IMG/VR virus record: IMGVR_UViG_3300006072_000042
Span: 1-24,495 of that record
Direction: 5' to 3' (one strand)
DNA length: 24,495 nucleotides
Origin: a virus
This document shows positions 2,373-16,850 of this stretch, piece by piece. How positions within the stretch are numbered: position 1 is the first letter of the stretch; each line of letters starts with the position of its first letter. Position numbers and translations under genes: made by a program. The notes under the pieces are model-generated. The model made no database searches. It had not been told where the DNA came from and saw only the letters and a list, made by a program, of their open reading frames with translations.

Positions 2373-2567
2373 ATGAATTATCCAAAATGTTATAGAGATT
2401 TTGATCACTACAGGGACTGGGTAGAGCTGGCTAAGTTAGCTAGAGAGGTGATATCGCCCTGTGATGATTGTTGCGCCAGGTATGCTGCCAAAATGTCAGC
2501 GTTGGATAGATGCGACAAAAAATGGGTAAAAACAATAATTATTGGAAGCCGTAAAAAACAGCAATAA
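2373..2567 (+). CDS. Small cysteine-rich, possibly zinc-binding protein, 64 aa
   Basis: The product begins MNYPKCYRDFDHYRDWVELA and carries SPCDDCCARYAAKMSALDRC, giving Cys30-X2-Cys33-Cys34-X12-Cys47, a spacing suggestive of a small zinc-binding fold. From memory, short phage proteins with an SPCxDC...M...RC core are frequent near early control regions; a DNA- or host-polymerase-binding role is plausible but not shown. The C-terminus is basic (GSRKKQQ). There is no obvious ribosome binding site at the ATG, so a leaderless or weakly translated mRNA is possible. It is the first rightward gene and is followed by the structured non-coding stretch. Confidence 0.6.
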   Translation: MNYPKCYRDFDHYRDWVELAKLAREVISPCDDCCARYAAKMSALDRCDKKWVKTIIIGSRKKQQ

Positions 2568-2572
2568 ATGTG

Positions 2573-2578
2573 TATAAT
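2573..2578 (+). promoter_or_regulatory. Perfect -10 box (TATAAT) upstream of the RNA candidate
   Basis: TATAAT lies just after the stop of the cysteine-rich gene. Transcription would start near 2584-2586, exactly where the first hairpin of the putative RNA begins. No convincing -35 element is present at 16-18 bases upstream, so it may need an activator or be weak. Confidence 0.45.
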
Positions 2579-2584
2579 CCAAAT

Positions 2585-2738
2585 CGTCTGAGTGGCATCA
2601 GGCGAAAGAGATCAATCGTAGAACCCCATAGAATCCTGTGTGGTCTTGTCAGACGGCAAACGAACTTTTGATTGATCTCAATCGTTTGTTGTTGCTCTCG
2701 CCAAGAGCCAAGACCACAGAGAGTTTTATGGGGTTTTT
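2585..2738 (+). ncRNA. Candidate structured phage non-coding RNA, about 154 nt
   Basis: Hand folding gives a 5' hairpin, CGTCTGA (2585-2591) with TCAGGCG (2598-2604) around a 6-nt loop; a linker; and a long rod. The rod base pairs 2620-2633 with 2724-2737 (core AACCCCATA/TATGGGGTT), followed by TGTGGTCTTG (2639-2648) with CAAGACCACA (2709-2718), then CAAACGA (2657-2663) with TCGTTTG (2682-2688). The rod closes directly onto a T5 tract (2734-2738), as an intrinsic terminator would. The linker GAGATCAATC (2608-2617) is perfectly complementary to GATTGATCTC (2670-2679) at the rod tip, so a pseudoknot or an alternative fold is possible. CGTCTGA can also pair with TCAGACG (2649-2655). No protein-coding frame explains the region. 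It could instead be an attenuator leader or part of a replication origin. Confidence 0.55.
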
Positions 2739-3018
2739 GCATTTGGTGGCCGTACTCCTCACGATAGCAGCGCATCTGAATGGATGGCTAGGAGCAGAAC
2801 ACCGCACACCGACACACCCCGGTGCAAAATGTGACCAGCGTTGGTTAACCGACTGGTAAAGCACAAGGTAACTCAGGTGGCAACTAGGCCTTGTGTATAA
2901 GATGAATTAACCCCTCATGGGCACTTGGGCTTTTGTTGATGCTATTTAGATACTTTAAGACACATTAAGATTAACAGGGTTGGAGCAGGATGGATGTATA
3001 TCCACCCTAGGATAACCT
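2739..3018 (+). other. Non-coding leader of the rightward operon with further hairpins
   Basis: No convincing gene lies here. Visible structure includes a hairpin ACCA(2834-2837)-GC bulge-GTTGG/TTAA/CCGAC-TGGT(2854-2857) and, right after it, CACAAGG (2862-2868) pairing with CCTTGTG (2889-2895). A weaker CACCG/CGGTG pair is at 2800-2824. The stretch ends with an inverted repeat and the ribosome binding site of the replication-like gene. It may be a 5' untranslated leader, a replication origin or both; no tRNA features were found. Confidence 0.4.
2987..3008. repeat. Inverted repeat just upstream of the replication-like gene
   Basis: AGGATGGAT (2987-2995) and ATCCACCCT (3000-3008) are complementary with one mismatch around GTAT. 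The repeat ends two bases before the AGGA (3010-3013) that serves as the ribosome binding site for the ATG at 3019. It could be a repressor operator or an mRNA hairpin that controls access to the ribosome binding site. Confidence 0.4.
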
Positions 3019-3402
3019 ATGACTAAAGAAAAAGGGGCTGAAATGTTTGAATCTGGGTTTGATAGGTTTTGGAGAACGTGGCCAATATCTACACGAAAAG
3101 GGGGCAAGTCACAATGTATCAAGATATGGGAAAAGAACTATCTTGAGAGCTGTTGTGATTCCATCATTAAACACGTTGAATGGATGAAAACGACCGACCA
3201 ATGGCGTAAGTCAAATGGGGCGTTTATACCAGCTCCAAGCGTTTATTTGAACCAGCAACGATGGGATGGTGCTGAAGTGCCAGAAATCGCCCCTAAAGAG
3301 GTTGTAGACCCTTTCCTGAAGAAGTTTGAAGAAGATAAAAAGAACGCTGTGCCAATGCCAGAAGAAATTAAACGTAGACTGCAAGAACTTAGACAAAGAT
3401 GA
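3019..3402 (+). CDS. Replication-initiation/helicase-loader-like protein
   Basis: The 127-residue product has the layout of the C-terminal module of phage replisome organiser proteins: FDRFWRTWP near residues 14-22, KGGKSQCIKIWEKN at 27-40, and GAFIPAPSVYLNQQRWDG around 67-84. In known relatives this FxxFW...K...A...W...GxFIPxPxxYLNxxRW pattern lies in proteins that load the host helicase at the phage origin. Here it is a short stand-alone protein without an N-terminal DNA-binding domain, so it may act with another factor. The ATG has AGGA about 6 bases upstream. It heads the rightward operon and overlaps the next gene as ATGA. Exact function is inferred. Confidence 0.65.
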   Translation: MTKEKGAEMFESGFDRFWRTWPISTRKGGKSQCIKIWEKNYLESCCDSIIKHVEWMKTTDQWRKSNGAFIPAPSVYLNQQRWDGAEVPEIAPKEVVDPFLKKFEEDKKNAVPMPEEIKRRLQELRQR

Positions 3403-12329: not shown

Positions 12330-13118
12330 TTACACCTGAGTTGAGGTTGCGCTTTGGGGTACAACTTGACCATAACCGGGCTGTTGACTATTAGTATAAG
12401 TATTGGGGTTTAACAATGTAGCCAAGTAATTAAGTTGACTAGGCGCTGTTAAGTTTGATGTTGCCCCTGTTATACCTTGACCAATTGCGTTGGCAGCGCC
12501 TACAGTACCTGCTGCCTGTGCGTTAGCAGCGCCTACACCCAACTGGGCTATGTTAGTGGCGTTGCCTGTAGCAAGGTTAGACAACCCTGTAACAGCGTTT
12601 TGACCAATCCCTGCTATGCCAGCAAGTCGGTTATAAATGTTGGTTTGTTGTGTTTGACCTTGGTTAAACGCTTGTCCTTGTTGCGTCATGTAATTGTTCA
12701 AAGCATTTTGATATGCGCCTTGTGCAGTATTTTGCGTGTAGTCTTCTAGACCTTTTAACGCATTACCACCAATCAAACCGCCAGTCGCATTGTTAGCCAA
12801 ATTGGTCGCTGCCTGACCTTGTTGCAATTGGAACTGGTAATTAGGTGCTAAATTAGCGTTCAGGTCTTGAGCCGTGAATGGCTGATAAGTGGCCTGTGGT
12901 GTTGTTAAATATTGATTCTGAGCATTCAATCCAGCCAAGCCTTGTGCCCCAGTTTGCTGATAAGGAGCATAATTGGGCGCTAGGTTTTGATAATTGGTTT
13001 GTAATTGCTGTTGAGCATTAGAAGCCGCTTGTGCTTGCGTATTGGCAGCAGACTTTGATGCCTGAGAGCCAATTAAGGCACTTCCGATTGTTGCTGCTGC
13101 TAGATATGCAAATGGCAT
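12330..13118 (-). CDS. gp7-like DNA transfer (ejection) protein, 262 aa
   Basis: The product begins MPFAYLAAATIGSALIGSQA, an Ala/Gly-rich hydrophobic helix, followed by SKSAANTQAQAASNAQQQLQ and then APYQQTGAQGLAGL, a pattern typical of phage DNA-transfer proteins of the P22 gp7 kind. The rest is Gln/Asn/Ala-rich with a TGGLIGGNAL segment and repeated helical segments. Such proteins are packaged in the head and ejected to form a conduit for DNA. The ribosome binding site AGGAG lies 6 bases before the ATG, partly in the end of the cupin gene. Confidence 0.72.
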   Translation of the reverse strand: MPFAYLAAATIGSALIGSQASKSAANTQAQAASNAQQQLQTNYQNLAPNYAPYQQTGAQGLAGLNAQNQYLTTPQATYQPFTAQDLNANLAPNYQFQLQQGQAATNLANNATGGLIGGNALKGLEDYTQNTAQGAYQNALNNYMTQQGQAFNQGQTQQTNIYNRLAGIAGIGQNAVTGLSNLATGNATNIAQLGVGAANAQAAGTVGAANAIGQGITGATSNLTAPSQLNYLATLLNPNTYTNSQQPGYGQVVPQSATSTQV

Positions 13119-13456: not shown

Positions 13457-13674
13457 AGGTTGTAATAAGGTACTTTGTACTGTTTACCATTGACTGTGAC
13501 TTGCATATAACCGACTGGGCTAGATGGAAGCGCTGGGGTTGTTATAGTCGAGCTAAAGTTCACCATATTCAAAAAGAACTGCTGCCAAGGGCGTGTAGGT
13601 CTTTTAGAACTAGCATCTAAGAATTCAGCCTGTGGGTAAGGGTTGGTCTGGGGTGAACCATAGGTGTTAGCCAT
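13453..13674 (-). CDS. Small virion-associated protein, 73 aa
   Basis: The product contains YPQAEFLDASSKRPTRPWQQ, then FFLNMVN, and ends MQVTVNGKQYKVPYYNL. The TRPWxxFF and xxVNGxxYKxPxY pieces look like a small phage structural or tail-associated protein. Its start overlaps the gp10-like stop as TAATG, and its stop overlaps the cupin start as ATGA. The exact role is unknown; a neck or tail component is inferred from context. Confidence 0.6.
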   Translation of the reverse strand: MANTYGSPQTNPYPQAEFLDASSKRPTRPWQQFFLNMVNFSSTITTPALPSSPVGYMQVTVNGKQYKVPYYNL

Positions 13675-16600
13675 TAGTTCTCCCCTTGGGTCGCTTTAAG
13701 GTTAGCCGACACAATCGTTGCGTTGACTGGATCAGTTACCACCACCTCAAAAATCTTATCCCTAGACCATCCCAAACGTCTCCAAATGGCACGATTCTTG
13801 TATTTGCCAATTTTACCAATGCTGACCCAATGCTCCTTAGACCATGTTGAGCCACCATCGTTAGACCACCTGAGCATTGCTTTAGGATCAACGCCTTGTG
13901 AGCCTTCAAAAGCAGGGCTAGGAATGTTGTACTTTGGAAACTGAAGTGTTAACGCATTGAGCAAAGCCGTAGCAGTTTGTGCGCTAGTCACATTGTGATT
14001 GGCTGTGTACTGCGTAGGATACCCACCAGAGCCGTTTGTTGGCGTTCCTAGCGTGACTTGCGTAGTCGTAACCCGATTGGTCAAAGCAGTCGTTAAATTG
14101 GCTGCAAAGGGCTGAATTGACGTTGGGGGCGCTAGTGTGTCGTTGGTGTTGTACCAAATGTAGAAATGACATTTATTCGTGTAAAAGGTAGGAATAGATT
14201 CCCAACTTGTTAGCGAATAATATGGACTTGCAGCCAATGGCGTTGAGTTAGCCGTGTAAGTGTTGATCAGTCCAACTCCGAATGATCCAATAGGATTCGT
14301 AGCGTCACCAGCACCGACTGTCACCAAGTTCATTGGGCCATAAAGATTCATGCAAGCAGTTGGCCATGTTCCATTGGATTGAGCTTGGGCTATTGTGCCT
14401 TGTAGAGCCAAATAACCGCCTGCGCTGTTACCTGCCACCATCAAACCAAACTGAGCCACTTGTTGTTGTAGGCTAGTCCACAATGCGTTTTGGCTAGGCG
14501 CTGCTGAAGATGCGCCAGGGTTTAACAAGAAGTTAATCACTTGTGCAATGTCGTTAACGTCATTCGGATAGTCACCTGATGGCGTTAGTCTGTAATTAGC
14601 AGAAATAACAACGTAATTGGCCAAAACTATCGGATTGTAGATAGCTGTGTCGCTCGCTTTGTCACCGCCCGACCATCCACCGCCATGAATCCATAGGACT
14701 ACACCATTGGGCATTTGGCCATTCTTGTTGACCACATCCCATGAAGCAGGACTAATAATGTCTACTTTTTGGAGTGAATCAGTCCCATAGGGGATATCTG
14801 ATATTGTTGCGCCTAGAGCTGGAGCACCTAAAGAAACTCCTGAAAAAGAATATGGAGAACTGGAGACCAGAGTAGTGCCTTGACCTGTTTGAGTATTTCC
14901 ACTTATTGCATATCCTGAAATGGCAATACCTGCTATACCTGAAGAGGTATAACTAGCATTGGGGGTTGATAATCCCACGCCTGGCTGAAACTGAATCTGC
15001 AATTCTTCAAAATATTGACGTTGCAAATCAGAAACTAGGTGTGGTGCTCTTCTTAATCTTCTAATTTCTTGGCCGTTTTCTGTGTAATTACTAGGGTCTA
15101 ATAAATAGATATTTCCATTCTGATAGTCCCCAACGTACACAAATCCATTAAATACCGCAGAACAATTACCTCGATGACGATGGTAGACATTGTTATTGTC
15201 GACCGATAGCATTTTGTGCCACATTCCTGTCGTGTTATCCCACACCCAAGTTAAATCTAAACTAGGGAATGTAATAACATAACACTCGTGACCTTCTAGC
15301 TGATAAGTCCAAGCAATTGCGTCTGAGATATTTTGGTTAACCAAAGTTTGCTCAACTGCGTGGGTAGATATCCTAGTTGGCACATAGCCGTTCATCATGA
15401 CGATTTGGCCTTGACCACGCTGATTTCTAGATAGGTAAGCAAATGAGTTACCAACCCTAGAGACCGAGAATTTGGCAATAATGCCGTGTTGAGTTGATGT
15501 GCCAGGTATTCTTTGGAATGGGAAAGGGAATGAACCCACATCCACCCAAACCTCGCTAGACACCTCACCGAGTAGGTAAATCTCACGATGGTCAACAATC
15601 AAAGACACCAAATTATCAGGTGCGCCATCTTTACTAGAGAATTGTAAAGGTGCAGATAACGGGCTTAAAAGGTTACTAGAGCCAAATTGTTGCGTGTTAG
15701 GCCTGTTGTAAACAAATATGTTGTCTACGATGTCCACCACATCAGCGCCAGTAAATGCGCCATCTGTGCTTGGCAATACTGAAAACGCATAAGCCGTCAT
15801 GGTTGACGAATTACCCAAAGGAGAAATGTTGGCTAAAGCTGATGCCCCACCCGTACCGCTGAAACTCAACGCTGGGTTAGAAGTGTAAAAAGAGCCACCA
15901 TTGGCTATTGAATAATCGTTATTTAAGCCAAAAGTGAGCGTAATGGTAGCGTTTTTACCTGTTCCACCGCTAAATGACGCTGCACCCGTTGGAGCTTGTG
16001 TGTACGTTCCAACATTAACAATTGAAACACCAGTAATGACACCGCTAGATACTGTTGTCACTTTGAGTTGGCAAGCAGTCGTATATGTGCCACCAAAAGC
16101 CGTAATGATGTCACCGACTGTGTAACCCGTGCCACCTGATGTGATGCTTGTGCTCACAATCCCAATAGAGTTCCATGTCACCGATGCTATCGTGCCACCA
16201 TAGCCAGGGTTAGCGACTGTAACTGTAGGGGGTGTTGTATAACCTGATCCAGCGCTTAATAGGTTAATTGCTGTCACGCTACCATTAGAAACATAATTAT
16301 TAATGGAATACAAACCCAAACCATTAGCAGAAGTAGGTACTGATGTAATGATCGTGTTGGGGGGTATATTTGTGCCTGTGACGGCTTGACCAACCACCAA
16401 AGGCCCTGAAATGATGCCTGTGACGTTGATCTGATACCCTGAGACGTTACCAATAAACGATGTGGTAATAAAGGTGCTGATATAAATACTATATCTATTT
16501 ACCCCGTCTGTGATCATTACATACAGGCCATTGTCAGCAATACCGACTCGACCTGTTGTGGTTGTTAGGCTACCTAGACTGAACGTGTTACCAGAAGTGT

Positions 16601-16850
16601 CAATTGCGTACACGTTAGCGCCACATATCGCTATCAGGTACTTACCACCAGATATGGTGCGTAGTCCTCGAATCTCAGCGTTGCCTAAATTGGTGAATAA
16701 GGTAAGACCAGGTGTAGGGTAGAGAGCAACAACACCTCTTTGGCCTGGTTGCTTAAGTGGGTCAACTTCAGGCCGAAAGTTAATACACTCCTGATCATCT
16801 TGGTAGATTGATGGAGAAGTGTACGATGGGCCAACAAACCCAAAGTCCAT
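13674..16850 (-). CDS. P22 gp10-like tail-hub/DNA-stabilisation protein with inserted esterase domain
   Basis: The 1058-residue protein begins MDFGFVGPSYTSPSIYQDDQ with ECINFRPEVDP and YPTPGL, and ends with AMLRWSNDGGSTWSKEHW and WRRLGWSRDKIFEVVVTDP: the two conserved ends of gp10-like packaged-DNA stabilisation proteins, which form the hub closing the portal channel in P22. Residues about 365-626 are the beta-propeller-like body. Two foreign blocks expand it. Residues about 131-345 contain a small beta module and Gly-rich repeats such as GSGYTTPPTVTV and GGTGYTVGD. Residues about 627-985 are an alpha/beta hydrolase with HGGGW (722-726), GNSAGG (807-812), Asp904 and His952. P22 gp10 is about 470 residues, so this is more than twice the usual length. 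It overlaps both neighbours as TAATG. Confidence 0.85.
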   Translation of the reverse strand: MDFGFVGPSYTSPSIYQDDQECINFRPEVDPLKQPGQRGVVALYPTPGLTLFTNLGNAEIRGLRTISGGKYLIAICGANVYAIDTSGNTFSLGSLTTTTGRVGIADNGLYVMITDGVNRYSIYISTFITTSFIGNVSGYQINVTGIISGPLVVGQAVTGTNIPPNTIITSVPTSANGLGLYSINNYVSNGSVTAINLLSAGSGYTTPPTVTVANPGYGGTIASVTWNSIGIVSTSITSGGTGYTVGDIITAFGGTYTTACQLKVTTVSSGVITGVSIVNVGTYTQAPTGAASFSGGTGKNATITLTFGLNNDYSIANGGSFYTSNPALSFSGTGGASALANISPLGNSSTMTAYAFSVLPSTDGAFTGADVVDIVDNIFVYNRPNTQQFGSSNLLSPLSAPLQFSSKDGAPDNLVSLIVDHREIYLLGEVSSEVWVDVGSFPFPFQRIPGTSTQHGIIAKFSVSRVGNSFAYLSRNQRGQGQIVMMNGYVPTRISTHAVEQTLVNQNISDAIAWTYQLEGHECYVITFPSLDLTWVWDNTTGMWHKMLSVDNNNVYHRHRGNCSAVFNGFVYVGDYQNGNIYLLDPSNYTENGQEIRRLRRAPHLVSDLQRQYFEELQIQFQPGVGLSTPNASYTSSGIAGIAISGYAISGNTQTGQGTTLVSSSPYSFSGVSLGAPALGATISDIPYGTDSLQKVDIISPASWDVVNKNGQMPNGVVLWIHGGGWSGGDKASDTAIYNPIVLANYVVISANYRLTPSGDYPNDVNDIAQVINFLLNPGASSAAPSQNALWTSLQQQVAQFGLMVAGNSAGGYLALQGTIAQAQSNGTWPTACMNLYGPMNLVTVGAGDATNPIGSFGVGLINTYTANSTPLAASPYYSLTSWESIPTFYTNKCHFYIWYNTNDTLAPPTSIQPFAANLTTALTNRVTTTQVTLGTPTNGSGGYPTQYTANHNVTSAQTATALLNALTLQFPKYNIPSPAFEGSQGVDPKAMLRWSNDGGSTWSKEHWVSIGKIGKYKNRAIWRRLGWSRDKIFEVVVTDPVNATIVSANLKATQGEN
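13896..14972 (-). other. Inserted alpha/beta-hydrolase (esterase/deacetylase-like) domain
   Basis: Within the gp10-like protein, a low-complexity linker (residues about 627-675) leads into a hydrolase fold: DIPYGTDSLQKVDIISP (685-701), oxyanion-hole motif HGGGW (722-726), ANYRLTP (751-757), nucleophile elbow GNSAGG with Ser809 (codon 14424-14426), Asp904 in NTNDTLAPP and His952 in NHNVTS. These are the ordered elements of carboxylesterase/feruloyl-esterase-type enzymes. Immediately after it the conserved gp10 C-terminus resumes at DPKAMLRWSN (988-997). A role in deacetylating host surface polysaccharide is inference. Confidence 0.85.
16272..16460 (-). other. Small beta module inserted in the gp10-like protein
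   Basis: Residues about 131-193 read FIGNVSGYQINVTGIISG, then VTGTNIPPNTIIT and a Gly-Leu-Tyr segment. The same order of motifs (F-[VI]-G-x-[IV]-S-G, V-T-x-I-x-S-G, G-T-x-I-x-P-x-T-x-I, G-x-Y) occurs at residues 78-147 of the gp4-like protein. It appears to be a transferable beta-sandwich decoration. Confidence 0.55.

Follow-up and report, generated by a model that had tools for sequence, protein, structure and literature searches.

A predicted family of structured, self-terminating RNAs with a pseudoknot, near a replication gene of uncultured phages

A structured RNA unit ahead of an initiator-like gene

The window analyzed here is the whole 24,495-nucleotide stretch of the virus record IMGVR_UViG_3300006072_000042. 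Genes for an Erf-type recombination protein and a DNA-ejection protein, at 741–1292 and 12330–13118 (-), suggest a P22-like podovirus. A head-closure-like protein (phrog_578; 13674–16850, minus strand) contains an esterase-like stretch at residues 714–924, possibly an inserted domain or a fusion. An earlier note on this DNA had proposed that a structured phage RNA, equipped with a promoter and a terminator, lies between two early genes. The parts that it named, namely TATAAT, the 5' hairpin, a rod of 118 nt that closes with T5, and a linker complementary to the rod tip over 10 bp, all lie where it had placed them. We refer to this RNA as RNA-A, and its parts and downstream neighbors are as follows.

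2573–2578, + strand: -10 promoter box TATAAT; identified by sequence and conserved in homologues at a fixed distance
2583–2738, + strand: RNA-A, predicted small structured RNA of about 155 nt, from the predicted start to the T tract (folding z -7.38; covariation; model match of 157 bits)
2585–2604, + strand: P1 hairpin, CGTCTGA with TCAGGCG, conserved loop GAGTGGCATC (covariation)
2608–2617, + strand: pseudoknot strand 1, the linker GAGATCAATC; complementarity to the tip is kept in variants
2621–2738, + strand: rod, 118 nt including T5 (sequence, folding)
2621–2648 with 2709–2736, + strand: P2 rod, also the terminator stem (folding, covariation, distant members)
2652–2693, + strand: P3 arm, bearing the tip loop (99.1% of cells paired)
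2670–2679, + strand: pseudoknot strand 2, the tip GATTGATCTC (covariation)
2694–2708, + strand: P4 hairpin, loop CGCCA (folding, covariation)
2734–2738, + strand: T tract (T5) of the predicted intrinsic terminator; the T run is kept in homologues
2750–2937 (borders approximate), + strand: RNA-B, a second predicted structured RNA, of class B, right after the T tract (covarying stems)
3019–3402, + strand: replication-initiator-like gene, 127 aa (PHROGs phrog_9474, replication initiation, E 2e-12)

The rod is predicted to fold at -57.8 kcal/mol, with a z of -8.33; for the whole RNA, taken as 154 nt, z was -7.38. In neither case was any of 200 shuffled sequences as good, and on this count the folding check suggested by the earlier note came out clearly in favor of structure. 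The predicted shape is a near-continuously paired rod with a three-way junction that branches into P3 and P4.

Homologues, covariation and the pseudoknot

With the downstream initiator-like protein as query, 80 loci were found in viral metagenome contigs. About 50 of these gave a strong covariance-model match, on the coding strand and nearly always just upstream of the initiator-like gene. A scan with an exact 21-base piece of RNA-A returned at least 119 stretches. In total, 119 distinct RNA-A sequences were collected, all from viral metagenome contigs, and the family is larger than this set; the covariation alignment comprised 82 non-redundant, diverse sequences. RNA-A was present as one copy in 20 of 23 phage records tested and was absent from the rest. 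Searches of annotated phages and plasmids gave no homologue, only chance matches of 19–35 bases, and a strict pattern found none in a species collection of bacterial genomes; such empty results are not proof of absence. The Rfam/covariance search proposed by the earlier note matched no known family: Rfam 15 gave no hit for the window, none for 2500–3020 at E up to 10, and none in 14 related loci. Judged from these searches, RNA-A is a new RNA family, without match to known RNA families.

The expression signals are conserved among the homologues. The -10 box, which reads as sigma-70-type, matches at no fewer than five of six positions in 114 of 119 homologues. It lies a fixed 10–12 nt before the P1 loop, hence RNA-A would begin at P1. 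No -35 box in the window passed a consensus scan, and -35 matches are variable in the homologues (TTGACA matched at four or more of six positions in 40/119). At least four T residues follow the rod in all 119. Both a promoter and a terminator of its own are thus predicted for RNA-A, from signals that the homologues share. The earlier note had named a conserved protein-coding frame as evidence against an RNA; no such frame exists among the homologues, since their lengths differ modulo 3, and a coding region at RNA-A was ruled out on this ground.

RNAalifold, run on the 82 non-redundant sequences, predicted P1, the P2 rod, P3 and P4. When linker and tip were included, standard pairs made up 97.1% of pair cells (88.7% in shuffles), 26 pairs had changed on both sides (16.4 in shuffles), and 381 cells carried such both-side changes (109.4 in shuffles); none of 500 shuffles attained any of the three measures. 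Sliding the partner by one column lowered pairing to about 46%. P1 alone had 99.4% of cells paired and both-side changes at five pairs. The compensatory changes that the earlier note had advised looking for in relatives are therefore strong, in the helices and in the linker/tip pairing alike. The invariance of P2b and P4 arises in part because loci were picked by that sequence.

We also counted linker/tip pairing independently of the alignment. At least 8 contiguous pairs form in 117 of 118 variants, through 67 different helices; with tips of another type or with shuffled tips the corresponding figures were 7% and 3%. Pair entropy peaks here, at 1.93 bits compared with 0.06–0.89 in the other helices. 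By median estimates that leave loop entropy uncounted, opening costs ~3 kcal/mol and the duplex gains ~13, a net of about -10 kcal/mol. Three distant members (L060, L070 and L071) keep the rod, the P1 loop and the pseudoknot in other sequence, their pseudoknots having been read by eye. By this comparison the linker/tip complementarity is a true, conserved pseudoknot in which the sequence is free and the match is fixed. Collectively, the folding, the covariation and the signals shared by homologues bear out the structured RNA with promoter box and terminator that the earlier note had put forward, and it is almost certain, as far as sequence comparison can tell, that RNA-A is a genuine small RNA that is structured, terminates itself and contains a pseudoknot.

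Near-identical RNAs with different pseudoknots were considered as a sign of diversifying selection. In one such pair (L039 and L063), there were no differences at 141 positions elsewhere in the RNA, none at 400 downstream, and 37 at 300 upstream. Recombination within the RNA fits this pattern equally well, and the argument for selection was dropped; drift and recombination suffice to account for the pseudoknot diversity.

The earlier note had further suggested that CGTCTGA might switch between its P1 partner and a second partner at 2649–2655. The second partner is present here, but a run of 7 pairs with it is kept in only 12 of 82 homologues, compared with 79 of 82 for the P1 pairing, and we abandoned the switch on account of this poor conservation. 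The P1 loop (GUGGCA) and the P4 loop (GCCA) are invariant among homologues. UGGC of the former matches GCCA of the latter over 4 bp in the majority of variants, over 6 bp in two and over 5 bp in one, and a contact between the two loops could form. Simple counts of length would allow the rod (~25 bp), P3 with the pseudoknot (~26) and P1 with the contact and P4 to lie side by side.

The slot and its neighbors

The slot that RNA-A fills, upstream of the initiator gene, is occupied in sister phages by other terminated RNAs. One such group, which we call type II (GCCRYTTA...TAARYGGC-T run), was found at L002, L012, L018, L027, L073, L076–L079 and L202, and its 5' hairpin loop pairs with the rod over 7–8 bp in about nine different sequences. 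Further unrelated terminated RNAs sit in the slot in L038/L044, in L069 and in MW202484.1 (L201:2821-2945), and in each of them the 5' loop, as read by eye, is complementary to part of the rod. These slot RNAs are unrelated to RNA-A and share its plan, in which a 5' loop base-pairs with the rod. The immediately preceding gene in L202, L073 and others looks, by eye, like one for a Cro-type helix-turn-helix protein. A contig of a Comamonadaceae bin carries a related initiator gene and holds a type II RNA, not RNA-A, in the slot. This is the only hint of a host, and a weak one; no RNA-A homologue was found in 301 genomes from the family of that bin.

Downstream, RNA-A or a type II RNA directly precedes a second structured RNA in each of the 177 locus entries whose flank is long enough, some of these entries coming from overlapping records. 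The second RNAs fall into class B (63 entries), class C (102), class D (10) and a small fourth class (2), and none of the four matched Rfam. Class C covaries well above its control (183 compared with 59 in shuffles, shuffle maximum 76), and class B, with covarying stems, occurs both in the window and in MW202484.1. In the latter, an annotated hypothetical protein (L201:2866-3225) overlaps the class B RNA and is probably no gene. The gap between the T tract and the second RNA is too short for a promoter, so the second RNAs would be reached by read-through. Among 113 entries found via the RNA alone, 82 have the initiator gene no more than 0.7 kb downstream of RNA-A. In MW202484.1 and L060 the order is reversed, the initiator gene preceding the RNA or the second module.

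Comparison with known RNAs and possible roles

6S RNA is small and rod-like and has a promoter and a terminator of its own; its long hairpin has a large central bubble that mimics an open promoter and binds sigma-70 RNA polymerase. RNA-A is also rod-like, with a promoter box and a terminator, and the earlier note had been reminded of 6S by its rod shape and open apical region. However, its rod is near-continuously paired and lacks a large central bubble, with a three-way junction and a pseudoknot instead, and the 6S covariance model found nothing in 2500–3020 at E up to 10. Kinship to 6S was rejected for want of an Rfam match and for the wrong shape.

Closer parallels lie among phage leader RNAs. 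The P4 CI RNA halts transcription of the P4 replication genes (PMC4825925), and the c4 antisense RNAs form the Rfam family RF01695 (PMC2864571). RNA-A resembles P4 CI and the c4 RNAs of P1-like phages as a putative leader before replication genes with complementary segments in one transcript, but differs from them in its own terminator rod, its pseudoknot and the lack of an Rfam match. The pairing partner lies inside the same RNA. Unlike the case of P4 seqC, no separate target of the pairing strands stood out in the same phage contigs, where their matches were not enriched (16, control 12.2), and a trans target of the tip within the contigs is thus unlikely. IsrK of prophage Gifsy-1 is a short terminated RNA made from the same promoter as a read-through mRNA (PMC4825925). 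RNA-A likewise has its own terminator, and its downstream genes would be reachable by read-through; by contrast, it has no Rfam match, its neighbors are replication genes and it contains no protein-coding frame. GOLLD and ROOL, both of unknown function, are elaborate phage RNAs that combine pseudoknots and kissing loops (PMC12286853). They are, like RNA-A, phage-encoded structured RNAs with pseudoknots, but they are several times larger (GOLLD often >800 nt, RNA-A about 155 nt) and lie near tRNA genes, of which the window has none; their covariance models matched neither the window nor the 14 related loci.

We tentatively favor a reading in which RNA-A acts as a leader and gates the early/replication operon in a manner like that of the precedents P4 CI RNA and IsrK, kinship to either being unproven. 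This reading comes from the slot between early genes and initiator, the read-through that is needed, and the swapping of RNAs with the same plan. On this view, transcription of an early leader would yield RNA-A as its short, terminated form. Most transcripts would end at its terminator and a minority would extend into the second RNA and on to the replication genes. The ratio of termination to read-through would be fixed in cis by this short product or by the way it is folded, and perhaps also in trans, through pairing with new leader copies; the phage would thereby tune its own early/replication operon by its own RNA. The conserved structure, promoter box and terminator and the nearby initiator gene (82/113 entries) speak for this. 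Against it stand MW202484.1 and L060, with the RNA or second module 3' of the initiator gene, and the pairing strands, whose 16 matches elsewhere (control 12.2) give no enriched separate target. The strong intramolecular pseudoknot (about -10 kcal/mol net) also leaves less room for pairing in trans.

The main rival, which we consider possible, is an abundant RNA acting on its own, with a compact fold to which a protein of the host or the phage binds (candidates being RNA polymerase, an RNA chaperone, a nuclease or a defense protein, perhaps as a decoy), while the terminator just ends the RNA and the neighbors are incidental. The compact fold with its invariant loops (P1 GUGGCA, P4 GCCA) and the single RNA-A copy per phage agree with it, and RNAs that are unrelated but built alike could share one partner; yet it has no Rfam relative such as 6S to lean on, and it leaves the constant place before a second RNA, near the initiator gene, unexplained. 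We regard as somewhat unlikely that the slot is an RNA-based identity system, in which interchangeable self-terminating RNAs, their pairing diversifying under selection, each recognize only their own kind and the second RNAs are swappable; under that reading, it may serve for immunity to superinfection or for copy control over the transcription of replication genes.

A terminator or attenuator acting only in cis on the downstream operon, with a released RNA that has no role of its own, would fit the conserved terminator and its unvarying position before the second RNA. We nevertheless rate it unlikely, given that a plain terminator needs neither the conserved P1 hairpin nor the pseudoknot nor invariant loops, and that a conserved alternative (antiterminator) fold was looked for in the homologues and not found. 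Slightly less probable again is a regulator that base-pairs with host or phage mRNAs. The P1 loop GAGUGGCAUC is conserved and exposed, as such a regulator would have it, but it may be taken up by P4, and the variable strands are each other's partners, with no enrichment of matches elsewhere in the contigs. Finally, a folded DNA element, for example a replication origin or a recombination site, would suit a neighborhood that includes a replication gene. It is very improbable, however, as many pairs on the + strand alternate G-C or A-U with G-U, which argues for RNA and against folded DNA, and as the -10 box and T tract are conserved.

RNA-A represents a common, strongly structured family of uncultured phages that neither Rfam nor any annotated phage searched contains. 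The swaps between RNAs of the same plan, together with 67 pseudoknot sequences, amount to a natural experiment on the role of the slot. Should RNA-A control the replication genes, the short list of known phage regulatory systems that work by RNA only would gain an entry.
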